A DNA stretch of 64,000 nt from Maribacter spongiicola (GTDB lineage Bacteria; Bacteroidota; Bacteroidia; Flavobacteriales; Flavobacteriaceae): NCBI RefSeq assembly GCF_004364165.1, contig NZ_SOAY01000010.1:1701098-1765097 (forward strand). Direction: 5' to 3'. The notes under the pieces are model-generated. The model was not told the origin of the DNA. It searched no databases and saw nothing but the letters and a program-made list of their open reading frames with translations. A program made the position numbers and the translations under genes. Shown here piece after piece: positions 4,316-21,707 of this stretch (position 1 is its first letter; each line of letters begins with the position of its first letter).

Positions 4316-6367
4316 TTAATTTGCTGTTGCCCTAAAGGTAATTCTTCTGTTAGTAATTACTGTTTTAGGAGTATTAAAATTCACAGTTATCGTTTCTGAC
4401 GGGTCATCAGCGGTAATATTAGTATCTGTTTGGTCTTGAGAATTACTAATATTATTAGTGTATGTTGCTGTAGAAGTATTTACATCGGGTAAATTAACCC
4501 GTGTTACTAAAGTCAAGGTTTCTAAATCTCCGCTGTCCATAACACCAACAGACCAGTTTGGATAAGAAAAATTCCCTTTTGAAACTGATGATGATATAAA
4601 TGAAATACCGTCAGGTAAAACATCTGTGATTACAACATTTGAAATAGGGTTTACTCCTAAGCTTTCTACAGTTATGGTAAAAGTTACCATTTCACCATCT
4701 GATACTGTATTTGTATCTGCAACTTTTTTAATAACCACGTCTGGCAGACAATAGTAAGCTGCAATAGGTTGAGAATCATAGGTACAACCACCTTTGGTAA
4801 CCCTTACAAAATAGTCGCCAGCTTCACTAGGATTGTAACTTGAAAATATAGCCCCCGTAACAATAGATCCGTTTTGGTACCATTGGTACGCATCAAAATT
4901 GGCATCAACTACGCTGATTAACGCACCAGGTAAGCATCCACCTCCATTAACTTCCAGGTCAACTTCGGGTACGGTATCAAATCCAGAGAAATAGCCTGCA
5001 ATACCACGATTGTCATTTACACCAAAAAAACCTACAGCAATTGGTCCTGTAGATTGTACACTTACATTTCCTGTTAGGTTAGAAATATAAAATGTTTTCC
5101 AATCTGTAGATCCTGCAACCGATAAAGAAGCTGGCAGTGTTACGGCTCCTGATCCATCTGATACCGTAATATTTCCGTCAGGCGTTGATGTAGATGCAAT
5201 GATGGTAATACCTCCGGTAAGAGTTGTGCCGGCTGAATTTGTAATATCGGAAATGTTATCTAAATTATCTGGTAATAAACAGTTGACAGGTGCAACAAAG
5301 TTTAACCCGATGGTCTGCACCCCAGAACTACCTGCTAAGTTTTGATACGCATAGGCATCCTTTGAAGTAGTGACCAACATGTTGGCGCCTGGTGAACCAC
5401 TTGAATAATTTGAACCAGGAACCAAAAAGTAATCACCATTATTAATAGTTGCTATTGGGGTAGTGGAACCATTAACAAATATATCGGTATTGTTTTGAGT
5501 ACCGATAATAATTGGAAATTCTGTACTGTTTTGTCCATTCCCTCTTATAAATACATACTCCTTACCAATTTTATTTATTGGTACTGGTTGGTCTATACCG
5601 GCGTCTCTACTGCCTGATGAGCTGGATACAACCCCGTAATTTAAACCACCATTACTAATGGCTATGTCTTTAGTTGAAACTATGGAGGCGCCTAGCCACC
5701 CATCTATGTTCGCCGAAGTTTCGTTCGTATAGGCTTCAAGCACAAAACTTTCATTTTTGTTTAAAGTAATTTGGATATTATCACTTGTAATTCCATCTCT
5801 ATCGTTTTGCAAGCGAAATTCACAATCAAAATCATAGCCGGTAATATCTACTACCGTATTATCTTCTGTTGCCATTATCCCCAATGATGTTGATATATCT
5901 GAGGTAGTTGCATAATTTGGCGCGCCGCCCCATTTAAATTTTGTACCTAAGGCTTGCCTTCCCTTAGAAGTTAAAGATGTTGCTTGTGCTGAAGAGGTAC
6001 CTCTATAATTTACATAGAATTTTTCACCTGTTGGAGATTCAAATCGGAGTCCGCTATTGTTTATAACAATACCTGTGTTACCATTTTTTACCATGGTAAC
6101 ATCATTGTCACCATTGGCCAATGTATAAACCCCGGGAGATATATTAGAAATAGAGAATGTTGCATCTGGTGTTGTAGCTGATCCAATATAAGCATTAACT
6201 GTAAAGGCGGTTGTTTCTGGAGTAGAAAGATAAATGGCTTGTTCTTTGACTGATGAGTTGTTACTACCCTGTTTTAATGGCGGTAAGTAATGAAGATCAC
6301 TTAACTGGGAAAATCCAACCGAAGAAACCATCATCAATAAAATAAATAAAAAATGCTTTTGCTTCAT
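4316..6367 (-). CDS. Secreted IgGFc-binding-like/DUF11 protein, short paralog of the giant next door
   Basis: This 683-residue protein has a signal peptide (about 1-20, ending VGFSQ). Residues about 20-460 closely track the N-terminus of the adjacent 4262-residue protein, with shared motifs SDLHYLPP, IYLSTPETT, KFYVNYRG and GYFSGFDTVPEV. This region resembles the bacterial IgGFc-binding-like domain. An Ig-like stretch around 480-540 (DAYQWYQNG, then GDYFVRVTKGGC) and one DUF11 domain (about 542-655) follow. It ends with a short basic tail, TNRRITFR, and shows no FTPNGDG-type T9SS domain, so its anchoring is unclear. It lies downstream of the giant gene, with a hairpin between them. Probably a surface or adhesin-related protein. 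Confidence 0.8.
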   Translation of the reverse strand: MKQKHFLFILLMMVSSVGFSQLSDLHYLPPLKQGSNNSSVKEQAIYLSTPETTAFTVNAYIGSATTPDATFSISNISPGVYTLANGDNDVTMVKNGNTGIVINNSGLRFESPTGEKFYVNYRGTSSAQATSLTSKGRQALGTKFKWGGAPNYATTSDISTSLGIMATEDNTVVDITGYDFDCEFRLQNDRDGITSDNIQITLNKNESFVLEAYTNETSANIDGWLGASIVSTKDIAISNGGLNYGVVSSSSGSRDAGIDQPVPINKIGKEYVFIRGNGQNSTEFPIIIGTQNNTDIFVNGSTTPIATINNGDYFLVPGSNYSSGSPGANMLVTTSKDAYAYQNLAGSSGVQTIGLNFVAPVNCLLPDNLDNISDITNSAGTTLTGGITIIASTSTPDGNITVSDGSGAVTLPASLSVAGSTDWKTFYISNLTGNVSVQSTGPIAVGFFGVNDNRGIAGYFSGFDTVPEVDLEVNGGGCLPGALISVVDANFDAYQWYQNGSIVTGAIFSSYNPSEAGDYFVRVTKGGCTYDSQPIAAYYCLPDVVIKKVADTNTVSDGEMVTFTITVESLGVNPISNVVITDVLPDGISFISSSVSKGNFSYPNWSVGVMDSGDLETLTLVTRVNLPDVNTSTATYTNNISNSQDQTDTNITADDPSETITVNFNTPKTVITNRRITFRATAN

Positions 6368-6511: not shown

Positions 6512-9500
6512 TTATCTATAGAGCGTAAAGTTTCCTACAAACTCTCTAGTATCTGCAGCACCATTTAATTTGATAACGTACCAGTAATCTCCAGTTGGCA
6601 GCTCATTTTCTTGATAGAATCCGTCCCAACCGTCTTCATTATCCTTGAAGGTGAAGACTGTACGACCGTATCGATCATAGATGCTAATGAAAATTTCTGG
6701 ATAAATTTCTATGTTATCTGGCATCCATAAATCGTTTTGACCATCACCATTCGGAGTAAAGAAATTAGGAATTTCGATATCTATGAACTCAATGAAAATA
6801 CTTGCTGTTACTTCACAGCCATTTTCATCAACAACAGTAATTTCATACGTACCAGTCTCGGTAATATAGAACACATTTTCAGAACCTCTATTTTCATCTT
6901 CGAAATAGAAGGTGTAGTTTTCTCTACCACCCGCAACTGTTGCAGTTATCTGGTTAATGTTACTTTCTTCAACGGTCATTTCAAGAGGGTCAAATGCCAA
7001 TATCTCAACATCATATGTGGTTAAACAACCATTAGCATGAGAAATACTGATGTAGTGAGTACCGGGAGTCAAATCTCTGAAAATCGGTGTTAACTGCATT
7101 TCTAAGGGATCTACAGTATCTAAACCAAATAGTACATCATCTTCTATACTTAAATCATTTAGAATAATATTTACATAGTTACTAGGGAATGTACCATTAC
7201 AACCGTAAACCGGCTCAACAGTAGCTCCAAGATCTACACCTGGGTCAATGGTAACTATAATAGTTTCTTCACAACCTTGCGCATCTTCTATATAAATGAT
7301 GTAATCACCGGCTGCCAAGTTGGTGAAACTTATTCTGTCTTGTACAAAATCTGTTTCACTTTCTAAACGAGTACTATATGGAGCAGTACCACCGATTATT
7401 GATAAGTCAATTGTACCGTCTTCTTCACCTACACAAATTTCAGGAGTGGTTGCAGTTGTAATTTCTAACACTTCAGGCTCTTCAATAGTGGCTTCAATAA
7501 GTTCAAAACAACCATTAGTATCTTGTGCTATAATAATATAATCACCTGGCGCCAATTCGTCAAATGTATTGTCATCACTAAAACGATCTAAGTTTGGAGA
7601 AATAGCATATTGATATGCACCTGAACCACCAAGCATATTCACTGTAATAACACCATCATCTTGTCCATTACAAGTAACATCGTTAATTGTAGTGTTAGCC
7701 GTGTCAATAAGAAGTTCGTCTGGTTCGGTAATCGAAATCAACAAAGAAGATACTTCACAATCATCGCTCTGAACTCTTACATAATACGATCCTGCCAATA
7801 AATCTGTGAATAGACCTGTTGTTTGATTTGCACGAACTTCATTGGTGAACCCTGCATCAGAAAATAAAGCATATTGATAGTTGCCTAATCCGCCTTGCGC
7901 TTCTGCATTTATAACTCCGCTATTATCACCATTACAGCTAATAGTTGGGTTGTCATTATCTAGAGTAACGGTTAACGCTATAATCGGATTAATTGTAACA
8001 CTATTACTTAATACTGATACACAACCAAAGCTATCTTGAATATAGTATTGATATGTATTTGGTAGAACACCTGTAAATAGATGGGTGTTTGGTCCATTAG
8101 TTTCGTTCATTGCATTGAAAGCAGATGTACCATCGGTATTCCACATATATGGTCCTGTACCGCCAGAAGCAGTTAATAAAAGTTGCGCATCATCTAGACA
8201 TGTTGCTCTTTGCTCAGTAATCAATTGACCTTTAACCTCAACCGGTTCAGCAATTTCAACGATACTGGTTTCATCAGAACAGTTCAAATCATCAAGAATA
8301 GTTACAGTGTAGTAACCTGATCTTAAATTCATGAATGTTGCTGTGGTCTGAGAACTAGAAGTCTGTAAAAGGTTAGCACCTGGTCCATCACCATCATACG
8401 TTTTAAGAATGTATCTGTAATTTGTTGATACTACTCTTGGCGTAAACGCTGCAGTAATTATTCCGTCTGTATCACCTTCACATTCTAAACCTACAATAGA
8501 TTGAATATTAGCAACAATCGGTTCTGGCGGAGTTAAGGTAAACGCATTCGTAAAAGTTACTGCACAACCTAATTTATCTGTTACTTCTACCGTATACTGA
8601 CCATCACTAAGACCAGTGAATAAATTACCATTTACTTGATTGGCGGTATATGTAGTGCCTAAGGTTGTATGTGTTACTATTATATTGAACGGAGCTTTAC
8701 CGCCGTTAGGTATAATATTGGCACTTCCCATATCATTACTACAACCCACATCTTTAGTCAAAATTGACGCTAAAGTTATTGGAGCTGTAGGAGAGGCAAT
8801 TGTGAAAGATCGCTCTTGTATACATTCAGGAGTTCCAACTTGTGAAGCTCTTAAAATATAACTACCCGCAGCTACCGGAATAGAAGCTGTTGTTCCTGTT
8901 CCTGTAAATATGCCGTCATCGTCTGTACGTACAGTAGCTGTTCCATCAGCATTTACAACTTCCCAGTTGAAATCACCTGCATAAGTAGCATCTGTAAATG
9001 TTACTTCAATAGCCCCATCTGTTCCAAAACATACTACATCAGAAAGTTTATTGACTTCAATACTAAAAGTATTAGGATCTTCTACAATATGATTTCGTGT
9101 TATTTCACAACCAGTATTTAAATTTTTAATACCAATAGTATAGGTGCCAATTGCCAAGTTGGTAAATACGTTATCACCTGTTTGATATGTTGCAGATGGT
9201 AATATTCTAAACTCATAATTAGCAAGATTTGCAGTCGTATTGGTCACTGTACTATTTACATTAATAGTAATGTTTTCTCCGCTATTTACACAATCTAAAT
9301 CTCTATCTACATTTACAGTTGCATCAATAAATGTATCATAAGGGTTTATGGTAACTATGTGTTCTGCAGAACAACCTTCGTCATCATATACACGAACAAT
9401 AATATCACCACCAGCCGCATCTGTGTGGGTATAGATTAAATTACTGCTGTTTTGTAGCACAGTCGAAGTTGCATCATCAATGAATTCAAAACGATCATAT

Positions 9501-12500
9501 GTTCCGCTACCACCATTTATTAAACTTGCGTCTATTGTTATTGTAGCATTGTCACCGTCATTACCGTTAGCACAACCAAATTGTACTGGAACCGGAGCAG
9601 TAAATGTTACAGCTGCATTTTCATCTACAACCACTGTTTTTACTATAGGACAGTTATTTGGACCTCTAGCGGTTACATCGTAAGAACCACCAGGTAAACC
9701 AATAAATGATTGTGTAGCTGCATCCCATGATGCAGTTGCCGGCATTGGGTTTAAAACATAGGTCAAAGGATTGTTTCCGTTATTCACTTGTACCAATTCA
9801 ATACTACCGTCATCAGCACCTGAACAACTAACCTCAATAGGAGATGCGGTGAAATCTGGACGAATAGCCGCAGGTATGGTCACCGTAAATGTTCTAAAAC
9901 AATTTGGAGAAGCGGTACCAATATCATAAACATTGACCGTATAATCTGTATCTATCGTATTATCCGGAACGCCTACTGGTACATTCATTGCTCCACCTGT
10001 AAGAGTTTGTCTTGTTTCAACATCTGCTGATGAACTGTCAAGAATTTCGAACTCATAATTTCCAGAACCTGAAATACCTTCAATAGCTATTTCTGCCTCA
10101 AAACCGGCATCACAACCTAATTGTTTGTCTAAACTAGCTGATGCTTGTAGGGTAGGGTGTACCACAATATTTGTGTCATCTGTACAACCAGTAGCATCTT
10201 TTATAAATATAGTATAGCTACCAGCTGCTACAGTATTGTATATACCGCCATTGTTTTGATACGAAATACCACCATCTAAAGAATAAAGAATAGTTCCATC
10301 ACCTGTAGCAAATATTGTAACCGATGCATTTGTATCACAATTTGCAATCACCACATTATCAATAGTTGGTGCTGCTGTAAAACTCATGATAACATCATTA
10401 AGAGCATACGAACAACCATATTGATCCTCTACATTAACCGTATATGTTCCTGCAGGTGATCCTGCTGGTATTTCTATAGGGTTATCACCTGTTGCTGTAA
10501 TAGTTGTGAATGTTGCAGGACCTGTAATCGTATAGAAGTAAGAACCTCCACCGCCTTGTACATTCTCGATTAAAATTAATCCAGCGTTTTCACAAGAAAT
10601 ATCTTGAATAGATTTTGTGATTCCTGTAATCTCATCCAACATTTCTAAAATCTCATTTTCACTCGCACTTATACATTGTGGAGCTCCGCCATTATATTGT
10701 TGTACTTCAATATAATATTCATCTTCTGGTAAGCTGGTTACATTTATTGTACTGCTAAAGCTAATGATGCCGCCACTATCTCTTATTACATTTCCATCTA
10801 CATCATATAAAAACCATTCCATATCAGGCTCTATGGAACCATCTGTATCTGTAATGGTATACGTTATTGATCCATTGCTTGACCCTTCACATGCAGGAGT
10901 AATAACTGATGTAATATCCATTGGGTTGGTAATAATATCATTTACGTTAACACTACTCTGTCTAACACAACCAACAGCATCTCTTACATAGAACGCATAA
11001 GTTCTGCCTGGCACTAAATTATTAAATGTATGTGTTGTTCCTGCAGCATAAGATGTTGTCCAACCATTAACAGGGGTAATTATGTTGAAATTGGCAGGGT
11101 CTTCTGAATACGTATATTCATAAGGCGCAGTACCATTTTGACCACGAACACTTACTTGTAGTTCATTACAATTTACAATGATCGGTAGTATAGTTATGTC
11201 TAGATCATCTAAAGGATAAGGGATGATTAATCTTGGTAAATCTGTCTTACAGATAGTATTTCCGCTGCCATCTATTGTTCTTATAGATGGTTCAACTTCT
11301 TGACCTGAGGTGTACCCTCTAAATTGATCAGATGTTTGCCAAGTTGCGCCACCATCATCACTAAATTCTAATGTGCCTAAGGTAGCTGGGTAATTAAGAA
11401 TGTCAAACCCGAAATCATTAGGATCTCCTGTACATGCAACTGGCGTTCTTCCTTCTGCATCTGCAGTTAATTCAATTGGTGCTGTAATAGTAACAGTTTC
11501 TGTTTCTGAACATCCTGCTTCGTCTGTAATTACAACGTCATATTCACCTGGTGCCAGGTTATAGTATGTTTTAGTAGTTCCTACTACATTCGTTTGTACT
11601 TGATCTGGTGTGCCGTTAGTCACATCTATCAATCTATAATCGAAAGGAGAAAGTCCGTCGTTAATAGTAACTTCAATATTACCAGTGCCATTATGACAAT
11701 CTGGATCAGTGGCTACTGCTGATATATCCAATACTGGGTTTGCCGAAATAGTTTCCGTAACCATAGTTTGGCAAGCATCAGTACCATTTGCTTTATCTCT
11801 TACATAAATATCATAAGGTCCAATATCGGCTAATAGAATATTAGTAGTATTACTAGCAGAGAAATCAGCATCGGTAACTGTATTTCCAGAAGGAATGAAA
11901 GCATAGACAAAATTATTATCTCCACCCGATGCTGTCGCAATTAATGAACCATCGGCACATAAACTTGCATTTACGGCCACTACGCTAAGCGAAATTGTAG
12001 GCGCTATAGTTATAGATTGAATAGAAGTTGCACAACCAAATTGGTCATTTACTTCTACATCATACGTACCTTCTGATAAATTGTTGAAGGTGTAACTTAT
12101 ATTGGTAATAGGAGAAGGTGTTTGCCACGCTCCGCCATTAATTCTAAATGAATAATTACCATTACCATCGGTTACAGTAGCTGTTACCGTACCGTTGCTT
12201 AGACCATCATAACATTGTGTAGCTGTTAAATCAAAAGCTATAGTATCTGGTTGAATTACGTTTACTGTAGTCGTTGAAATAACTTCACAGTTATTCTGAT
12301 CTCTAACCCTAACATGATACTCGCCAGCAGGCACATTTAAGAATTGTGCTGAGGGAGTAAAGGCTCTAATAATAGTATTATCGGTTAATTCTAATTGATA
12401 TTCATAACCAGGTGTGCCTTCAGTTGCAGATGCTTGTAAAGTAGCACCTGTATTAAAACATGTAAATTCTGCTTTTTGTTGAAGATCTGCTGTTAATGCA

Positions 12501-15500
12501 TTTGGTGATGTCAACGTTGCTGAAGTTGCTGAGGTTGCCGTACATGTATTATCGTCAATTTTTTCGACCATAATGTTATATGTACCATCTGAAAGGGTAG
12601 AAGGAGTAGTAATTGGAGATGTCGTTTCCGTTGTCCAAGTTGTACCACCGTCTACAGAATATTGATATCCGAATGCAGGATCGAAATTAGAAACTTCAAA
12701 ACGAATACTACCGTTATTGCTACCGTTACATGTTGGGTCAGTACTACCTAAAATGGCTACTTCAAAAGTTTTTCCAGATTCTACAATTACTGAAATATTT
12801 TGTGTTTGTTCACATAACTCTGGAGTCTGTGACGCCTGAATATCATCTAATACCAAGAAGTTACCATTGTCACTATCAAGGTTGGTACGTAAAACAACAC
12901 CAACGGCAGTATTTGCACCAGGGTTAAACGTTACCGTTCTTAAATGCCAATCGTCTGCATTGTTATTTTGCGGAATAGCTGCTGTTGCCTGACTACTGAT
13001 TACAGTACCTGAACCATTAACCAATTCTACCAATATTTCTGGGTCGTTACCCGAAGCATTATCAATTAATATGTTGTAGGCGTAGAATGATATCGTTATT
13101 TCTTGATTAGCAAGTGCTTCTAAGCCTGTTCTTGACCATAGAATATTGTTATTACCTGCAGAGGTACTTACCCCAATTGCCATAAATCTACCATCGGTTA
13201 CACCTGTACGGTCATTAGGACTTCTCCAAGAAGCATTTGGGTTGGTTATTCTATTGGTAACCGCATATTCAGCATTTACAAGAATACCGGCAGGACCTAA
13301 ATTACAGTCCGTATCTGTACCATCTTGTGGTTCGTAGCAATATCCTGGACCTATTTCTGCAATCTGTGTAGTTACACCAGCTCCAAAATCCTCAAGAAAT
13401 AATGTGCTCTGCTCAGCAGCAATTGAACTGGTATAGCCAACTGTTATTGTTTGAGTACCTGAAGCAACATCATTGAATACATTACTATCTAATGGTGTGT
13501 TATCTGTACCGTTTAATTTATAAGTATATGTAAAGTCTGTTGTGTTAGAAGGGGTGATTGTTACTACACCATCCCCATCGCACTCATAAGTAATATCATT
13601 AGTAAAAGTTGGGTCTATAGCGGCTGTAGGTACTGTAATTTCTAAAGGTGTCTCACAACCCAAAGCATCTTTTATAGCTAATTGATAGTTGCCAGGTGTT
13701 AAACGTCTTTCAATAATTGAAGAAAAGGAGTTACCACCATCAAAACTATATTGATAGGGAGCTTGACCGCCACTACCATTTAAAATCTTTACTAAAGCGG
13801 TAGGGGTTGCCGCACCAGATGTATCACATGACGCATCTTCTATAATAGAAGGCGACGCCGTTAATGTATATGGTTGGGTAACTTCATATTCGTAAGTCTC
13901 TGTACAGCCATTTCCCGCAGTACCGCTAGAATCCATAACCGTAATGATATAATTACCTGCGGCTATGTTGTTGTAGAAATTTTCTGTTTGGTAAGTTATC
14001 CCACCATCAAGACTATATTTATAAGGTGCATTGCCACCAGAAGCAGTAATCGTCATTACGGATGTAGAAGAATCTGCACATATAATATCAGTATTTGAAG
14101 CACTTATTGTAATAGTACCCAAATCTTCCATTTGTACGATATTCGATAATCCGTAACATCCATTATCATCTCTAATTACAAATACATATTCTCCATTTTC
14201 ATTAGGTACATATGTTGAAGGGGTGCCTTCATATCCGAATAAAAAGGATGGGTTAGATGTGAAATCTGAGTCTGGAATGGTAGTTTCATCAGTATATGGA
14301 GCTACACCATCTTTACTATAGATAGCATATTCATACCCTGTTGTACCACCAGTTGCCGTTAAATTAATAACACCGGGAGTACATGTAATATTATCTTGAT
14401 TTGTTGCTGTTAACCTCAGTTCAGGAATTTCGTCTACTGTTATAGTTTTTTCGTCATTACAACCATCTGTTGTAGTTGTTACAATAACATAATCATCTGC
14501 TGAAAGACCTGTAAACGTATGCGTATTGTCAGAAGAAAGTAAATTATTAGTTACCAAGGCTCCTTTGCCGCCGCTACCATTATCGAAGTAAATTTCATAG
14601 CTATATTCTGGTGAAACGTTCAATGCCTGTATAGAAATTGTTCCTGCATCGGTACAATCAAATGGAGTTGTACTAAGCTTTGTTTCAAAAATTCTTTCTG
14701 CAATACCAATTTCTTCGGTTTCGAACACACAACTGTTTTCAATAGGTGCACCTGTTGAAGGATTTAGTTGAGTAATCTGTACTTTATAGGTACCACTGGT
14801 TGTGATAGCAAAGTTGGGACCTTGAGCAGCGCTAAACGGTACTGCTATATTGTTATTTTCTACATCGAATAACTGGTAGCCATAACCACTACCTAAATCT
14901 ATTACTCTTATTGAACCTTCGGTATCACAAATGATATCAGACGAATCTGGTTCAGGAATGTCTAAGGTATTTTGGTATGCGTTAAAATAGAATCTACTAA
15001 AACATCCGCCTTCATAACCTATAACTACTCTATATTTACCACTATCGGTTACAGTAAAATTATCTGCATCTGTTTCTTCGTTCCATGTCCAACCACTAGC
15101 TGTATTTGCACAATCATCACTTACATCGCCACAATTAGCAACATTACAACTTGTTTCGTCAAGTTTTTCCCATTTAATACTCAAAGCATCGGTTATTCCT
15201 AATTGAATAAATGCACTATCTGTATCACCACAAAGAAATATATGTGGCATTGAGTTGTTGTCATTTGAACAAGTTACGATTTCACCTTGAATATCATTAT
15301 CAGGATTACTGTCGCCATTAACTTGGTTAAAGTAACTGATGATCGGGTTGGTCTGTGTTTCACCATAACGCTCTACGGTAATTAATTCTGTGTGGTTAGC
15401 ACAACCAGAACCTGATGTTTTCTCAACAATATAGTTACCTACGGTAGTTACAGTCAACGTGTTTGAGGTACCGTCATCTAAAATAGTATCTCCAGAATCT

Positions 15501-18500
15501 ATTGATCCATTATTATTGGTGTCAATCGCCCAAGTGTAGGTGTCAAAACCAATACCGGCAGAAAGTGTTCCGCTAGCGCCACAAAGTTCTACTGTTCTTG
15601 CAACATTACAATTTGCCAATGCATCAGATACATTGTTGGCCGCTACTTCTAAAGTTGTGGTACATGCACCTGCAGGGTTACTTCCATCTTCGTCTGAAAA
15701 AGTATTAGTATTTAATGTTCCAGAATAGTTGGCATATGCATGATTCTCTAGTTGAGAGGCACAAGCTGCGACGAATTCAGAACAGTCGCCTGCAACAGAA
15801 ACCGTTATTTTTATCTTATACTCGGGGTCATCAATTTCAACTAAAGTATTAGGTATCGTAAATGTTATGGTTCTAGTACTTTCTTCATAACTACTGGTTA
15901 CACCCGGTGCATCATCAATATTTATATCATCTAAGCTTACATTGTCTGGTAGTACATTTTTGATCGTAAAACCAGTTGCATGATCATCGCCCGTATTCTG
16001 AAATCTTAATACATAGTTGTAGGTATCCCCTAAATCTACATCTTCGCCATTAATATCTGTACCACCCAATAATTCAGTGGTGTTACCCAATACAATTACC
16101 GGTGCAAATACTTCAGTATAAGATGCTGCATTTACCGTACCATCGGTTGGGTCAACTGCAGGAACTCCCGTTCCATATTCGCCACCATCACCGCCGTCAG
16201 CTGCGTCATCTTTATAATATTCATTGGCATCACTACACCCATCATCATCACTATCTAAATCTAAATGATCAGGATATCCATCCATATCGGTATCTAGATT
16301 GGCACAAAATCCGGAAAAGGATGCTGTATTGTAAGATAAGAATGCAACATCTGCATTTGAACTTAGTTGTAATCGTAAATAAGCTACGTCAGCTAAACTA
16401 GCAGCTGGAATACCGAATTCTGACAATTCTACTGTTGCCAAGCGGTAATCTCTAGTGGTATTATTATAGAAGATGCTTCCGTTTGCGTGGTAAATGTCTA
16501 ATCGATATCTACCTACAACATTAGCAAGTGCTCCGCCGCTGTAAGCCTGCACACGTACTGAGTTGCCTAGTGGGGCACCAGTTGCATCATAAAGACTTAC
16601 AACATGACCCACACCACTTGGGTCTGCAACTTGGGTTAATAATATATCTGGTATACCATCGCCAACGTTAGTCGCTACGATAGGATCTATTTCATAAGTC
16701 CATGTATCACCAATATTGACAATACCAGAACCAAGATCTAGTCCGTTTTGCCCGTGGGTCAATAACGGATTCAATAGATCTGTAGATGGGTCATTAACAA
16801 TGGTCAATCCAAGAGCATTATCATCATTACCATCATTTAAATTAGCCTCAAAGGTAGCCTCGCTATATATTGTATTTGAAGGGCTCAGGGCCATCCAGCT
16901 AGATTCTGTGGCTGAAATATCCGAAATTCCATCATTATTGGAGTCTATGCCATCTGACAAACCATTTCCGTTAGAGTCATAAAGATTATCGTCGGCAACC
17001 CCAGTGGTAAAAGTGGTGCCTCCAGAAGTGAATGCCAACAATTCATGTGATAAATTTGGCAAAACTGGATTTATTGAAGTAGTAGAACTTCTCCAAAAAC
17101 CATAGAAATTAGAGAAAATTTCTGTTACGGCAGTACCACCTTGCACAGTACTAGATGGTGATGTAAAATTCACATCATTAGATATGATACACATTTGTTC
17201 TACTGAATCATAAATACCATCATTATCATCATCTAGATCAACGCTATCTACAACGCCATCATTATCAAAATCGTTATGTACTATTATTCGGGCCGAGGGC
17301 TCATCTCTTGTAATATTGGCGTCCGTTTGGTTTTGAGTATTGGTAGCTATATTAACGAGGTTGAGTAAAGGCAAGATATCTATTTCGTCTGCGGTTACTT
17401 CTAAAGTCAAAAATGCAACTTCACCTGGTGCCAATGTTCCAATATTCCAAACACTTCCATTCCAGGTTCCTGTAATCGTAGAAGCCTCTTTTAAAGTTAA
17501 CCCTGCAGGGATATTATCGGTTACCTGAAGATTAGTAATTGGTAAATACCATAAATTCTCTGCTCTAATGGTAAAGGTGGCAGTTTCCCCCTCTGTAATC
17601 TCAGGTTTGTCAACTGTTTTTATAATTTGAACATCTGGCTCGCAATAGAAAATTTTAATAGTTTGAGAATCATAAGTACATGGTCCTTTTGTACCTCTAA
17701 CATAGTAATCACCGGCAATAGTTGCGGCATAGTCATAGGCATTAGCTCCAGGGATGGCAACACCATCAAAAAACCATTGGTAGGCATCAAAATTATCATC
17801 TGAAGCCTCAAAAATACTTGAACCAGAAAAACACTCACCTTCGGTACCACCATTAATTTTTAAGACTACTTCCGGTACGGTATCAAACCCTGAGAAATAA
17901 CCGGCAACACCTTGAGCTCCATTGAAACCGAAAAAACCAACAGCCATTGGTCCTGTTGAGGTCACACTAATATTTCCATTTAAGTTTGGTATATAAAATG
18001 TTTTCCAATCATCTGAACCGGTTACGGTGTTAGATGCTGGTTTTGAGATTTCCACACCATTTTCGTACACTTTTATATTAGTATCAATGGTATTTACGGA
18101 AGCAATAATTGTAAGTCCGCCAGTTACAATACTACCAGCAATATTTGTAATATTTGGTATGTTGTCCATTACATCTGGTAATAAACAGTTCACTGGCGCT
18201 ACGAAGTTTAACCCTTGGGTGTATAAATTACTTGATCCTGCCATTGATTGGTAGGCATATACATCTTTCGATGTTTGAACGAACATATTGGCACCAACTG
18301 TGTTAGAAGAATAGTAAGTACTCGGTATTTTAAAGAACTCACCATTGTCAATGGTTGCAATTGCTGTGGTATTACCATTTACATATACATTTGTATTATC
18401 TGCCGTGGCAATAACCAAAGGAAATTCTGTTAATCCGTTCGTATTACCATTACCTCTTATGAAAACATAATCTTTACCTAGTTTATTAATAGGCACAGGT

Positions 18501-19300
18501 TGGTCAATACCGGCATCTCTATGGCTTTGACCATCTTCACTACCAAAATTTATAGAACCATTACTAATAACAATATCTTTTGTGGCAACAATAGAAGCCC
18601 CGATCCAACCATCTTCATGGGCTTTAGTGTAAGTATTTCCTATATACGTCTCATATACAAAAGATTCGTTTGCATTTAAGGTTATGGTATGTGAGTTGGC
18701 TGTAATACCAGCCCTGTCAGCACCTACTCTAAATTCGCAACCGGGATCATAACCAGATAGTACCACTGTAGTATTGTCTTCTGTAGCCATTATGCCTAGG
18801 GTGTTTGATTTAGAAGAATGAGTACCTTTGTTAGGCACCCCGCCCCATTTAAAGTTGGTACCCATAGCTTGTCTGCCCTTTGCTGTCAATGATGCAGCTT
18901 GTGAGTTAGATTTACCTCTGTAATTGACATAGAATTTTTCTCCGCCTGCAGAAATAAATCGTAAACCACTATTGGTAAGTACAGTACCAGTATTATTGTT
19001 GTCTACCAGGGTAATATTGTTATCACCGTTACCTAATGTCCAAACACCTGGGTTAAGATTGTCAATGGTAATAGTTCTTACAATTGTATTAGAAGTACCT
19101 TGATAAGCGTATACGTTGAAAGGAGTTGTTTCTGGAGTTGATAAATATATCGCTTGATTCTGTATACCTTGGTTATTTTGACCCTGCTTCATTGGTGGTA
19201 AATAATGAAGGTCACTTAATTGCGCAAACCCCGTAAATGAGCTAAATGCAATTAAAAAAAATAGGAAGTATTTAATTTTCGTTTTAGTCTGAGTAATCAT
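6512..19300 (-). CDS. Giant SprB-repeat adhesin-like protein with T9SS type B sorting domain (4262 aa)
   Basis: A signal peptide (ending TGFAQ) leads an IgGFc-binding-like region to about residue 480, then an Ig-like stretch (500-550) and a DUF11 domain (553-677). Aspartate-rich thrombospondin type 3-like calcium sites lie near 690 and 1013, with a second DUF11-like domain at 1057-1217. About 27 SprB-type repeats of 80-100 residues run from roughly 1570 to 4150 (hand count), with cores such as C.G..DG.I and GG.G.Y.Y. They are interrupted near 1967-2157 by a lectin-like module. The last 85 residues start FFTPNGDGQNDLW and form a T9SS type B sorting domain. Flavobacterium SprB (about 6500 aa) is the mobile gliding adhesin; this protein shares the repeat type and secretion signal but differs in its N-terminus. 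The ATG at 19300 is well supported by the signal peptide. Confidence 0.9.
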   Translation of the reverse strand: MITQTKTKIKYFLFFLIAFSSFTGFAQLSDLHYLPPMKQGQNNQGIQNQAIYLSTPETTPFNVYAYQGTSNTIVRTITIDNLNPGVWTLGNGDNNITLVDNNNTGTVLTNSGLRFISAGGEKFYVNYRGKSNSQAASLTAKGRQAMGTNFKWGGVPNKGTHSSKSNTLGIMATEDNTTVVLSGYDPGCEFRVGADRAGITANSHTITLNANESFVYETYIGNTYTKAHEDGWIGASIVATKDIVISNGSINFGSEDGQSHRDAGIDQPVPINKLGKDYVFIRGNGNTNGLTEFPLVIATADNTNVYVNGNTTAIATIDNGEFFKIPSTYYSSNTVGANMFVQTSKDVYAYQSMAGSSNLYTQGLNFVAPVNCLLPDVMDNIPNITNIAGSIVTGGLTIIASVNTIDTNIKVYENGVEISKPASNTVTGSDDWKTFYIPNLNGNISVTSTGPMAVGFFGFNGAQGVAGYFSGFDTVPEVVLKINGGTEGECFSGSSIFEASDDNFDAYQWFFDGVAIPGANAYDYAATIAGDYYVRGTKGPCTYDSQTIKIFYCEPDVQIIKTVDKPEITEGETATFTIRAENLWYLPITNLQVTDNIPAGLTLKEASTITGTWNGSVWNIGTLAPGEVAFLTLEVTADEIDILPLLNLVNIATNTQNQTDANITRDEPSARIIVHNDFDNDGVVDSVDLDDDNDGIYDSVEQMCIISNDVNFTSPSSTVQGGTAVTEIFSNFYGFWRSSTTSINPVLPNLSHELLAFTSGGTTFTTGVADDNLYDSNGNGLSDGIDSNNDGISDISATESSWMALSPSNTIYSEATFEANLNDGNDDNALGLTIVNDPSTDLLNPLLTHGQNGLDLGSGIVNIGDTWTYEIDPIVATNVGDGIPDILLTQVADPSGVGHVVSLYDATGAPLGNSVRVQAYSGGALANVVGRYRLDIYHANGSIFYNNTTRDYRLATVELSEFGIPAASLADVAYLRLQLSSNADVAFLSYNTASFSGFCANLDTDMDGYPDHLDLDSDDDGCSDANEYYKDDAADGGDGGEYGTGVPAVDPTDGTVNAASYTEVFAPVIVLGNTTELLGGTDINGEDVDLGDTYNYVLRFQNTGDDHATGFTIKNVLPDNVSLDDINIDDAPGVTSSYEESTRTITFTIPNTLVEIDDPEYKIKITVSVAGDCSEFVAACASQLENHAYANYSGTLNTNTFSDEDGSNPAGACTTTLEVAANNVSDALANCNVARTVELCGASGTLSAGIGFDTYTWAIDTNNNGSIDSGDTILDDGTSNTLTVTTVGNYIVEKTSGSGCANHTELITVERYGETQTNPIISYFNQVNGDSNPDNDIQGEIVTCSNDNNSMPHIFLCGDTDSAFIQLGITDALSIKWEKLDETSCNVANCGDVSDDCANTASGWTWNEETDADNFTVTDSGKYRVVIGYEGGCFSRFYFNAYQNTLDIPEPDSSDIICDTEGSIRVIDLGSGYGYQLFDVENNNIAVPFSAAQGPNFAITTSGTYKVQITQLNPSTGAPIENSCVFETEEIGIAERIFETKLSTTPFDCTDAGTISIQALNVSPEYSYEIYFDNGSGGKGALVTNNLLSSDNTHTFTGLSADDYVIVTTTTDGCNDEKTITVDEIPELRLTATNQDNITCTPGVINLTATGGTTGYEYAIYSKDGVAPYTDETTIPDSDFTSNPSFLFGYEGTPSTYVPNENGEYVFVIRDDNGCYGLSNIVQMEDLGTITISASNTDIICADSSTSVMTITASGGNAPYKYSLDGGITYQTENFYNNIAAGNYIITVMDSSGTAGNGCTETYEYEVTQPYTLTASPSIIEDASCDTSGAATPTALVKILNGSGGQAPYQYSFDGGNSFSSIIERRLTPGNYQLAIKDALGCETPLEITVPTAAIDPTFTNDITYECDGDGVVTITPSNTTDFTYTYKLNGTDNTPLDSNVFNDVASGTQTITVGYTSSIAAEQSTLFLEDFGAGVTTQIAEIGPGYCYEPQDGTDTDCNLGPAGILVNAEYAVTNRITNPNASWRSPNDRTGVTDGRFMAIGVSTSAGNNNILWSRTGLEALANQEITISFYAYNILIDNASGNDPEILVELVNGSGTVISSQATAAIPQNNNADDWHLRTVTFNPGANTAVGVVLRTNLDSDNGNFLVLDDIQASQTPELCEQTQNISVIVESGKTFEVAILGSTDPTCNGSNNGSIRFEVSNFDPAFGYQYSVDGGTTWTTETTSPITTPSTLSDGTYNIMVEKIDDNTCTATSATSATLTSPNALTADLQQKAEFTCFNTGATLQASATEGTPGYEYQLELTDNTIIRAFTPSAQFLNVPAGEYHVRVRDQNNCEVISTTTVNVIQPDTIAFDLTATQCYDGLSNGTVTATVTDGNGNYSFRINGGAWQTPSPITNISYTFNNLSEGTYDVEVNDQFGCATSIQSITIAPTISLSVVAVNASLCADGSLIATASGGDNNFVYAFIPSGNTVTDADFSASNTTNILLADIGPYDIYVRDKANGTDACQTMVTETISANPVLDISAVATDPDCHNGTGNIEVTINDGLSPFDYRLIDVTNGTPDQVQTNVVGTTKTYYNLAPGEYDVVITDEAGCSETETVTITAPIELTADAEGRTPVACTGDPNDFGFDILNYPATLGTLEFSDDGGATWQTSDQFRGYTSGQEVEPSIRTIDGSGNTICKTDLPRLIIPYPLDDLDITILPIIVNCNELQVSVRGQNGTAPYEYTYSEDPANFNIITPVNGWTTSYAAGTTHTFNNLVPGRTYAFYVRDAVGCVRQSSVNVNDIITNPMDITSVITPACEGSSNGSITYTITDTDGSIEPDMEWFLYDVDGNVIRDSGGIISFSSTINVTSLPEDEYYIEVQQYNGGAPQCISASENEILEMLDEITGITKSIQDISCENAGLILIENVQGGGGSYFYTITGPATFTTITATGDNPIEIPAGSPAGTYTVNVEDQYGCSYALNDVIMSFTAAPTIDNVVIANCDTNASVTIFATGDGTILYSLDGGISYQNNGGIYNTVAAGSYTIFIKDATGCTDDTNIVVHPTLQASASLDKQLGCDAGFEAEIAIEGISGSGNYEFEILDSSSADVETRQTLTGGAMNVPVGVPDNTIDTDYTVNVYDIGTASPNCFRTFTVTIPAAIRPDFTASPIEVSCSGADDGSIELVQVNNGNNPLTYVLNPMPATASWDAATQSFIGLPGGSYDVTARGPNNCPIVKTVVVDENAAVTFTAPVPVQFGCANGNDGDNATITIDASLINGGSGTYDRFEFIDDATSTVLQNSSNLIYTHTDAAGGDIIVRVYDDEGCSAEHIVTINPYDTFIDATVNVDRDLDCVNSGENITINVNSTVTNTTANLANYEFRILPSATYQTGDNVFTNLAIGTYTIGIKNLNTGCEITRNHIVEDPNTFSIEVNKLSDVVCFGTDGAIEVTFTDATYAGDFNWEVVNADGTATVRTDDDGIFTGTGTTASIPVAAGSYILRASQVGTPECIQERSFTIASPTAPITLASILTKDVGCSNDMGSANIIPNGGKAPFNIIVTHTTLGTTYTANQVNGNLFTGLSDGQYTVEVTDKLGCAVTFTNAFTLTPPEPIVANIQSIVGLECEGDTDGIITAAFTPRVVSTNYRYILKTYDGDGPGANLLQTSSSQTTATFMNLRSGYYTVTILDDLNCSDETSIVEIAEPVEVKGQLITEQRATCLDDAQLLLTASGGTGPYMWNTDGTSAFNAMNETNGPNTHLFTGVLPNTYQYYIQDSFGCVSVLSNSVTINPIIALTVTLDNDNPTISCNGDNSGVINAEAQGGLGNYQYALFSDAGFTNEVRANQTTGLFTDLLAGSYYVRVQSDDCEVSSLLISITEPDELLIDTANTTINDVTCNGQDDGVITVNMLGGSGAYQYAISPNLDRFSDDNTFDELAPGDYIIIAQDTNGCFELIEATIEEPEVLEITTATTPEICVGEEDGTIDLSIIGGTAPYSTRLESETDFVQDRISFTNLAAGDYIIYIEDAQGCEETIIVTIDPGVDLGATVEPVYGCNGTFPSNYVNIILNDLSIEDDVLFGLDTVDPLEMQLTPIFRDLTPGTHYISISHANGCLTTYDVEILAFDPLEMTVEESNINQITATVAGGRENYTFYFEDENRGSENVFYITETGTYEITVVDENGCEVTASIFIEFIDIEIPNFFTPNGDGQNDLWMPDNIEIYPEIFISIYDRYGRTVFTFKDNEDGWDGFYQENELPTGDYWYVIKLNGAADTREFVGNFTLYR

Positions 19301-19462: not shown

Positions 19463-20551
19463 ATGTCAGAAGAAAGATTAATGTCTAAAAAGAAGCCAGC
19501 TTACCCAGTAAGTGAGGCGTTAGATGGTTATTTGGAACATTATAGCCGTAAGATTGAAATTCCTATATTTTACGAAGATTTGCTACGTTTTTCAGGTTCG
19601 GTTGTAGTGTATGATAAAAATGATGAAGACACTCTTTGGGTACGGGCTTATTATTCAGAATATGAAAGAAAAGAAATAGATGATAGTTTAAAGAAAGTCT
19701 ATTCAATTTTACATTCTGACGGAAGTAATAATATTCATCAATATTTAAATGTTGATGCCGTTGATTTCTGTACGTTCGGAAATTCTAAACCTTTTCGTAT
19801 TAAGATTCGAAATATATTGAACGATAACTTCACTTATTTCTACATAAAAAAGACAGATGCATCTCGTATTTACGGCTTAGAATTAGAGCATATGCTTTCG
19901 CCCTATAACCTTAACTTTTTGGTGTATAAAGACACTTTAATAGAGGAGCATATTGCAGGTATACCTGGCGATGAATTTATTAAAAATAATTTGCCGCTTT
20001 GCACGCCTAGCGAAAAAGCACAATTAGCGAAAGAATTCGTAAAATTTAATGAACGTTGCATGATTCGATTATTGGGCGATATGCGCTCTTATAACTATGT
20101 AATTGTACCTACACATGATTTTGACCACGTTGTTTATAAAATTCGTGCTATAGATTTTGATCAACAGTGTTTTGAAGGAAAACTAAAAGTTTATAGGCCT
20201 CAATTTTTTAAAGAAAATTATCAAATGGTCGAGTTAGTTCGTAAAAAGCTAACCCACGATTCTGTTGATCAGTATAAATTGGAAGAACGTTCTATGGTGG
20301 CCAAAAGAATTTTAAGTTCAGGTAACAGAATTAAAAAATTACGTGCCATTTGTAAGACCGATGAAATTTCAACACCCGAAAACATCGCTATGCTAAGAGA
20401 ACAAATTGAAGTTCTTACGATGGATATGGATTTTCAGAACTGCAAAACAATGGGCGAAGTGCTAGATTTAGCGCTGAATTTTGTTCGTAGAAATTATGAA
20501 GATGTGAGTGTAAAACAAATTATAGAACACAATATTAAAATTAATAACTAA
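19463..20551 (+). CDS. Hypothetical protein with a possible kinase-like fold
   Basis: I do not recognise a named family for this 362-residue cytoplasmic protein without signal or membrane segments. Its middle reads like a small-molecule/protein kinase core. FYIKK (Lys129/130) could be the beta-3 lysine, GLELEH (Glu140/142) the alpha-C glutamate, and LIEEHIAGIPGDEFI a hinge. LGDMRSYNYVI matches a GDxxxxN catalytic loop (Asp206, Asn211), and RAIDFDQ (Asp231) matches a metal-binding DFG-like site. The order and spacing resemble aminoglycoside-phosphotransferase-like folds; this is my inference, not an established assignment. The gene is divergent from the giant adhesin gene and ends at a strong bidirectional terminator. 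In-frame ATGs at 19463 and 19481 are both possible starts. Confidence 0.75.
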   Translation: MSEERLMSKKKPAYPVSEALDGYLEHYSRKIEIPIFYEDLLRFSGSVVVYDKNDEDTLWVRAYYSEYERKEIDDSLKKVYSILHSDGSNNIHQYLNVDAVDFCTFGNSKPFRIKIRNILNDNFTYFYIKKTDASRIYGLELEHMLSPYNLNFLVYKDTLIEEHIAGIPGDEFIKNNLPLCTPSEKAQLAKEFVKFNERCMIRLLGDMRSYNYVIVPTHDFDHVVYKIRAIDFDQQCFEGKLKVYRPQFFKENYQMVELVRKKLTHDSVDQYKLEERSMVAKRILSSGNRIKKLRAICKTDEISTPENIAMLREQIEVLTMDMDFQNCKTMGEVLDLALNFVRRNYEDVSVKQIIEHNIKINN

Positions 20552-20580
20552 TACATATTTTAATAGCTAAAAATTGAAAA

Positions 20581-20616
20581 AGCCCATTATTTTCTAAAGA
20601 AAATAATGGGCTTTTT
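20581..20616. terminator. Bidirectional rho-independent terminator
   Basis: A perfect inverted repeat (AGCCCATTATTTTCT with AGAAAATAATGGGCT, 20581-20595 and 20598-20612) is flanked by T-rich sequence on the right and A-rich sequence on the left. It can therefore end transcription of both convergent neighbours. Confidence 0.9.
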
Positions 20617-20648: not shown

Positions 20649-21707
20649 CTAGCTCTTTTGTTCTTTGTTGAAGTACACTAAGTAATAATACATTTGTCTT
20701 TCTTCATCCCAACCTTTTTCAACAAATTTCTCTGCAGATTCTGGGTTTATGAAATCCATTTTTATCTGAATATTCGTATCTAAATTAATGACGTTCTTTA
20801 TCTTTTTACGTGCATCTGATACTGCCTTGTTCGCTATATCAAATGTAGAGACATCTTCAATACTGAATTTCGGTCCTTTTTCTGCTTTGTAATGCTTGAA
20901 TTCAGGTATCAATTCTGGGTTTTCCATTACCTCATTCAAAAAAGTAGACTCTTCAAAAGCATCATTTTTTGCAAAATGGTTAACTGCGCGGTTCATGAAC
21001 AATACCTCTTGTTGCTTGTCTTCTGCAGGTAAAACCACATCTTTTGCGAAATTCTGGCAAAATTTCAAGTAGTTTTTAGTCTTAAAATTGTCATCTGAAA
21101 GTGGGTCTACACCTAAGAAATTTTCAATCCAATATTTGGTATCGTACTTGTTACTGTCTACAGACAATACTTTGTAACCTTCTTCTTTATCAACATTGAA
21201 AATTAAACATCCTTTATCTAACTTATTGATGTTGATACCTTGTTGAATAACGATATCTAAGTTGCTGTTTTTTTCTTCGAACTGTATAAAATCGTGTTTT
21301 AACTCACTTTTAAATATACCTATGGCATCTACTTTTTTATTATCTAAAAGTAAGTTAGAAAGGTAGGCAACATATACCTCACCACTTTTAATATGTGGGT
21401 GGTTAGATTGTTCGAACAATAAGGAGGCTATTTTTTTAGAATTTAAATGTGCCTTCGAGTTATCTTCAAAAACTTCACTAACTATTTTGTATAGTTCATT
21501 GAATTCGACATCAATTTCATTAGCCAGTTTATAATAGTTTTCTTCCTTTTCTCTAAAAGGCTTAAAAAAGTATTCTTTTAATAGACCGGTGGTTTCATCG
21601 TTAAGTCTAAAGGGTTCTTCTGAAAGAAAAATACCTTCGTTCTTATTTTTGTTACCAACTCTATGTATAGAAATGCTTTCGATTTGGGTAGCATATAGGT
21701 TAATCAT
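20649..21707 (-). CDS. Nucleoid-associated protein, NdpA/YejK-like family
   Basis: This 352-residue soluble protein matches the NA37/NdpA family in its overall plan. The N-terminus (INLYATQIESISIHRVG), the central AYLSNLLLDNKKVDAIGIF segment and the LDKGCLIFN strand are typical of these proteins in Bacteroidota. E. coli YejK associates with the nucleoid; the function in this group is not well defined. It is the last gene of a minus-strand run that starts near 26,172. It lies 55 nt after the preceding gene, and that gap contains an 18-bp palindrome. ATG start at 21707. Confidence 0.8.
   Translation of the reverse strand: MINLYATQIESISIHRVGNKNKNEGIFLSEEPFRLNDETTGLLKEYFFKPFREKEENYYKLANEIDVEFNELYKIVSEVFEDNSKAHLNSKKIASLLFEQSNHPHIKSGEVYVAYLSNLLLDNKKVDAIGIFKSELKHDFIQFEEKNSNLDIVIQQGININKLDKGCLIFNVDKEEGYKVLSVDSNKYDTKYWIENFLGVDPLSDDNFKTKNYLKFCQNFAKDVVLPAEDKQQEVLFMNRAVNHFAKNDAFEESTFLNEVMENPELIPEFKHYKAEKGPKFSIEDVSTFDIANKAVSDARKKIKNVINLDTNIQIKMDFINPESAEKFVEKGWDEERQMYYYLVYFNKEQKS

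Follow-up and report, generated by a model that had tools for sequence, protein, structure and literature searches.

A conserved Bacteroidota protein with a predicted kinase-like fold and a complete putative kinase active site

The gene and its neighbours in Maribacter spongiicola

The window, by which we mean the whole stretch of 64,000 nucleotides analysed here, carries a gene for a protein of 362 amino acids that diverges from a giant adhesin-like gene on one side and converges with a gene of the NA37 nucleoid-associated family on the other. An earlier note on this DNA had placed the open reading frame and numbered its residues correctly, and had read a kinase active site into it. The features of the locus are as follows.

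6512-19300, minus strand: adhesin-like gene, 4262 amino acids, divergent neighbour of the kinase-like gene
19463..20551, plus strand: the whole kinase-like gene, 362 amino acids, ATG start (open reading frame list; residue 7 is encoded by another in-frame ATG)
19463..19744, plus strand: residues 1-94, helical N-terminal region ahead of the N-lobe, with invariant K11, L24, R29, W59 and Y80 (alignment, model)
19745..19801, plus strand: residues 95-113, opening strand of the N-lobe with its following loop, with invariant C103, N107, P110 and R112 (alignment, model)
19847..19849, plus strand: K129, putative beta-3 lysine (alignments, model)
19886..19888, plus strand: E142, putative alpha-C acid (alignments, model)
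19937..19981, plus strand: predicted beta-5 and hinge, residues 159-173, LIEEHIAGIPGDEFI, with invariant E161, H163 and G166 (alignment, model)
20075..20095, plus strand: putative catalytic loop GDMRSYN, residues 205-211, with D206 and N211 (alignments; model pLDDT below 50)
20153..20164, plus strand: D231-F-D-Q234, putative metal-binding Asp at the DFG-like position (alignments; model pLDDT below 50)
20577..20616, either strand: bidirectional terminator-like hairpin between the kinase-like gene and the NA37-family gene (hairpin search)
20649-21707, minus strand: NA37 nucleoid-associated family gene, convergent with the kinase-like gene

The gene occurs once in the M. spongiicola genome, and its closest named relative, at 98% identity, is that of Maribacter caenipelagi. 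The hairpin downstream belongs to a search that found three terminator-like sites against 0.6 expected. Since no hydrophobic span was found in the kinase-like protein, it is probably cytosolic. As for the adhesin-like gene, a repeat of 166 bases at 78% identity (window positions 4940-5104 and 17846-18010) links it to a gene for a protein of 683 amino acids with IgGFc_binding and DUF11 domains, and these two genes are therefore partly paralogous. A duplicated gene pair suspected at 54.5-59.0 kb of the window proved not to be one.

Distribution and residue conservation

A scan of genome contigs returned 471 stretches encoding relatives, the best 80 of the 471 at 80-98% identity. Strong matches were present in 103 of 392 sampled Bacteroidota genomes, the window's own included; the count is 103 rather than 105 because two genomes (G249 and G089) matched weakly and were unconfirmed in flanking DNA. 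There, tblastn at 1e-8 found nothing for either of them, nor for a weak second match in a third genome (G346), which was discarded as the open reading frame in question encodes an unrelated lipoprotein-like protein. Matches were also obtained in 59 of 196 genomes of an order-level sample and, with a paralogue (L140) as query, in 98 of 147 genomes of another family. No relative was found among plasmid records and none was confirmed among viral contigs.

We aligned the window protein with diverse relatives (58 rows, the others 79-38% identical to it) and, separately, with the products of 165 loci (166 rows, in which the window's own gene is counted twice because it recurs as one of the loci, L081). 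All five residues by which a protein kinase-like (PKL) active site is recognised, namely the beta-3 lysine (K129), the alpha-C acid (E142), the catalytic Asp (D206), the Asn five residues on (N211) and the metal-binding Asp (D231), are the same in all 58 rows. They fall among 36 invariant columns that also include D132, R135, E161, H163 and the residues F-D-Q234 that follow D231, so that K129, D132 and R135 make up an invariant K-x-x-D-x-x-R. Where the earlier note had left a choice, the alignment favours one member of each pair: K129 is invariant and K130 variable, and E142 is invariant while position 140 is nearly so (Glu in 56 rows, Asp in two). Conservation is near-total in the larger alignment too, with Lys at position 129 in 165 rows, Glu at position 142 in 165 rows and Asp in one, and D206, N211 and D231 in 166 of 166. 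The tetrapeptide D231-F-D-Q is likewise present in every one of these 166 rows, such that the metal site reads DFD and never DFG. The sole relative without the beta-3 lysine, which has Ile instead (L005), comes from a 5-kb contig of a metagenome-assembled genome with a title ending in 'cov_3', and this Ile is probably a sequence error. Of five dN/dS comparisons, two were usable (dS was saturated in two others and a stop codon interrupted one), and these gave 0.012 and 0.045.

That such a motif could arise by coincidence in an unrelated conserved protein has to be considered, given that 4 of the 403 unrelated neighbours of at least 200 amino acids contain the loose pattern K..E..D....N..D, as do 40 of 2000 shuffled queries; the motif alone is thus a 1-2% event. 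The conservation is another matter. The earlier note had picked the residues with a single sequence in view, and the probability that all five of five picks are invariant by chance is about 7e-5, an estimate that accounts for the invariance rate of K, E, D and N in this protein and for the two either/or picks.

Family searches and predicted fold

Sequence searches place the protein outside the families to which it might have been assigned. Neither Pfam (PF00454, PF01636 and PF07804 included) nor NCBIfam gave a match to the window protein up to E 10. PADLOC likewise gave none up to E 1, and PHROGs gave two weak ones (E 0.15 and 0.22). No PDB chain was matched up to E 10, whether by the window sequence or by the 58-row profile. 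The list of Pfam families matched by the 58 relatives at E 1 or below (25 of 26 listed) contains neither APH nor HipA_C. Several stray matches were taken as chance: LOH1CR12 (E 6.4e-4, a single relative), CFAP300 (best 0.0012, 3 of 58 relatives), the kinase-like family PIP49_N (0.15, 1 of 58), nspC (6.6e-4, 1 of 58) and Csx19 (0.0011, 1 of 5); a search with the consensus sequence added a single weak match of no relevance. PF00454 had no match in 21 genomes, the window's own among them. Within that genome PF07804 (HipA_C) had no match, and PF01636 matched five other places, with the kinase-like gene not among them. Because no Pfam profile matches it, the protein is by sequence no member of APH, HipA or PF00454.

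The family label proposed in the earlier note, APH- or HipA-like, found no support at family level. Profile-profile comparison with APH (15 rows from 30 loci, after removal of those of at least 400 amino acids or without the motif) and with HipA (8 rows) gave scores of 19.1 and 21.8, which are not significant beside controls of 15.5-17.1 with one side reversed and of 16.2 and 17.9 with both reversed, the latter control pairing the same positions again. The comparison has little power, as HipA and APH, two true kinase families, score only 14.0 against each other. The catalytic loops nonetheless fell in register with both families despite the non-significance, the loop aligning over 16 columns with that of HipA kinases (PF07804). 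With the APH/choline kinase type (PF01636), the protein shares the catalytic Asp, the Asn at +5 and the metal Asp in the same order, but has L204-G-D where APH has H-x-D.

Structure prediction, which the earlier note had proposed together with a Foldseek search as a check, was carried out in two AlphaFold2 jobs with closely related sequences only as input. The first (53 rows) gave a model of pLDDT 68.5 and pTM 0.72, against pLDDT 37-52 for the other four models of the same job; the second (80 rows) was worse, at pLDDT 52.9. The N-lobe of the first model consists of strands 95-103, 111-117 and 122-130, the last holding K129, followed by helix 133-145 with E142 and strands 152-155 and 158-163. 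After the hinge come helices 170-179 and 182-205, the loop carrying D206 and N211, then two strands, 210-219 and 222-231, the second ending with D231, and C-terminal helices. As modelled, this reads as the element order of a kinase, in which K129 would lie on beta-3, E142 on alpha-C, D206 and N211 after alpha-E, and D231 at the end of beta-8; the loop within residues 95-113 may then occupy the position of the kinase phosphate-binding loop. Confidence is unevenly spread, with most of the active-site segment (residues 205-252) below pLDDT 50 in the first model. The second model has the same N-lobe and an active-site segment without strands.

Structural comparison also points to kinases. The 50 Foldseek matches listed are all kinase-fold chains, none at E 0.001 or below (best 2.4e-3); TM is around 0.2 and rmsd between 15 and 24. 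For a bilobal fold, the kinase-like order of elements and the kinase-fold matches listed count in favour, set against the weakness of the best match and the low confidence at the active site. VIA-align gave a best Z of 7.9 for the first model (rmsd 5.1, 245 residues aligned) and 7.1 for the second (rmsd 5.0, 240 aligned), values below 8 that may reflect a merely common arrangement and are no proof. Among the 50 VIA-align matches listed for each model, all are PI3K, VPS34 or PIKK by title bar 7 for the first model and 6 for the second; the titles of these exceptions carry no chain name, and their residue numbering fits VPS34 or p110. APH- or HipA-like folds, absent among the matches listed, may still apply.

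What carries the case for a kinase is that motif, conservation and topology concur; a Z below 8 alone is no proof. With models of moderate and low confidence, the kinase fold that the earlier note had proposed is supported by residue invariance, by the succession of secondary-structure elements in the model and by structure comparison, and we regard a kinase-like fold as very probable. That the motif is coincidental and the protein no kinase draws some support from the lack of a sequence-profile link to any kinase family and from the imperfect models, but both models match kinases first, and taken with the improbability of the observed invariance this makes coincidence very unlikely.

Within the kinase-like superfamily, the nearest neighbours among the VIA-align matches listed for both models are of the PI3/PI4-kinase type (PF00454; VPS34, p110, PIKK), and an affinity with this type is likely on the strength of the models. 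Both K-x-x-D-x-x-R after beta-3 and GDx[RH]xxN, which we take to be PI3/PI4-kinase signatures, fit the protein. It differs from that type in having no PF00454 match, in carrying DFD instead of DFG and in being much smaller. PI3K is counted among the eukaryotic-specific families in PMC1821047, and the reference list of PMC10870513 points to exceptions in bacteria, the lipid kinases that Legionella uses as effectors. The latter paper describes 72 PKL families. A keyword search of the literature returned no paper on this protein recognisable from its title or opening abstract.

Our preferred reading, which we hold to be probable, is that the protein represents an undescribed family of the PKL superfamily, a soluble phosphotransferase with a predicted fold nearest the PI3/PI4-kinase type. 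'Undescribed' is judged here against the libraries searched (Pfam, NCBIfam and PDB sequences), and the family may yet coincide with one of the PKL families of KINtaro. Catalytic activity as a phosphotransferase is quite probable. ATP would presumably be bound between the two lobes, with K129, backed by E142, holding its phosphates, N211 and D231 holding Mg2+, and D206 positioning or deprotonating the acceptor. A protein that is well conserved, occurs in roughly a quarter of the sampled genomes of the phylum and matches no Pfam or NCBIfam family carries a complete predicted kinase active site; if active, it would add a new family to the kinase-like superfamily and a new phosphorylation pathway to Bacteroidota.

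Phosphate need not be the group transferred. SelO, a widespread PKL protein that long had no known role and for which redox links were suggested, was recognised as kinase-like in a similar way, according to PMC3281104, and is presented in PMC10870513 as a PKL protein acting as an AMPylase in redox homeostasis. By this precedent, and given the unusual DFD in place of DFG, the kinase fold could transfer another group (for example, AMP onto proteins) or serve as a non-catalytic regulator. We consider this unlikely, since the canonical catalytic residues are all kept, including the catalytic-loop Asp, a point of difference from SelO, and no SelO profile is among the matches listed.

Gene contexts and possible roles

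The earlier note had also suggested that the protein acts with the giant adhesin, and the gene arrangement close to the window is consistent with such a dedicated partnership. Of the 80 loci from close relatives (L001-L080), 37 have an adhesin homologue, immediately upstream and divergent in 35 of them as it is in the window, and about 2 kb away at 31% identity in the other two. The association is lost with distance, as only 1 of 52 further loci (L114-L165) has an adhesin match, at 32% identity; some flanks are truncated at contig ends. Moreover, an ABC-transporter-like pair adjoins the gene in other Flavobacteriaceae, and the adhesin is, by its sequence, a surface protein, while a cytosolic location is probable for the kinase-like protein. 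A partnership with the adhesin is, on this evidence, extremely improbable.

Two other contexts, neither of them seen beside the window's gene, offer concrete entry points for function. Outside the class, we fetched loci from 17 of 28 strongly matching genomes, and in 12 of the 17, drawn from seven families, bshA, a gene of bacillithiol synthesis, immediately precedes the kinase-like gene in the same orientation, the two matches being 18-159 bases apart. One of the products was identified as BshA (TIGR03999, 576.6 bits). In one genus, of which 60 genomes were sampled and 25 have the gene, clpP adjoins it in 14 of the 25, and in 12 of those the gene is flanked on its opposite side by clpX; profile matches identified ClpP and ClpX in one such locus. 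The loci concerned are the following.

bshA context: L120, L126, L127, L129-L134, L147, L161, L162
clp context: L204-L206, L238, L239, L241, L242, L244, L245, L247, L248, L250, L251, L253

The gene tree sets the 12 bshA loci on one side of a branch, together with three rows lacking bshA, and the clp-genus rows on the other (100/100).

Bacillithiol genes are reported for Bacteroidetes, and N-methyl-bacillithiol for Polaribacter, in PMC6282198. BshC was present in 381 of the 392 sampled genomes and the kinase-like gene in none of the 11 that lack BshC, a co-occurrence that is uninformative because most BshC-positive genomes are without the kinase-like gene. With BshC in so many genomes and the gene in 103, bacillithiol synthesis in itself does not depend on the gene.

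These observations bear on the substrate. With the same fold and chemistry, the protein could be a small-molecule kinase, acting on a sugar, a thiol-pathway compound or an amino-acid-like substrate, rather than a protein kinase. The position of the gene directly behind bshA in most of the loci outside the class favours such a role, as do the hinge and the GDMHSGN form of some relatives, which presumably resemble those of small-molecule kinases. The excess of BshC over the kinase-like gene speaks against it, and the clp context in one genus suggests a protein substrate instead; we see this as a tenable, if lesser, possibility. For the kinase-like phosphotransferase that we favour, our guess, prompted by the bshA and clp contexts, is a cytosolic target, protein or metabolite, with a link to thiol redox balance and protein quality control. 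A bolder proposal is that the protein belongs to an ancient, native bacterial branch of the PI3K/PI4K type that spread through Bacteroidota, and is a protein kinase coupling the state of bacillithiol to ClpXP proteolysis, the functional counterpart of phosphorylation-marked proteolysis in Firmicutes; this we regard as speculative and improbable.

The catalytic residues are kept in the 14 clp-context copies and in 15 other copies of one genus. Five clp-context copies on long branches cluster together (95/99), and their genomes are the five that have a second copy. Their fast evolution suggests that constraint is relaxed where a genome has two copies, and this speaks against a function linked to Clp alone.

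Eight further rows from clp-genus genomes (L255-L262) fall among other families in the gene tree; one of them, L258 (genome G694), is placed beside a sequence from the window's order (100/97). This placement suggests gene transfer or misbinned contigs.
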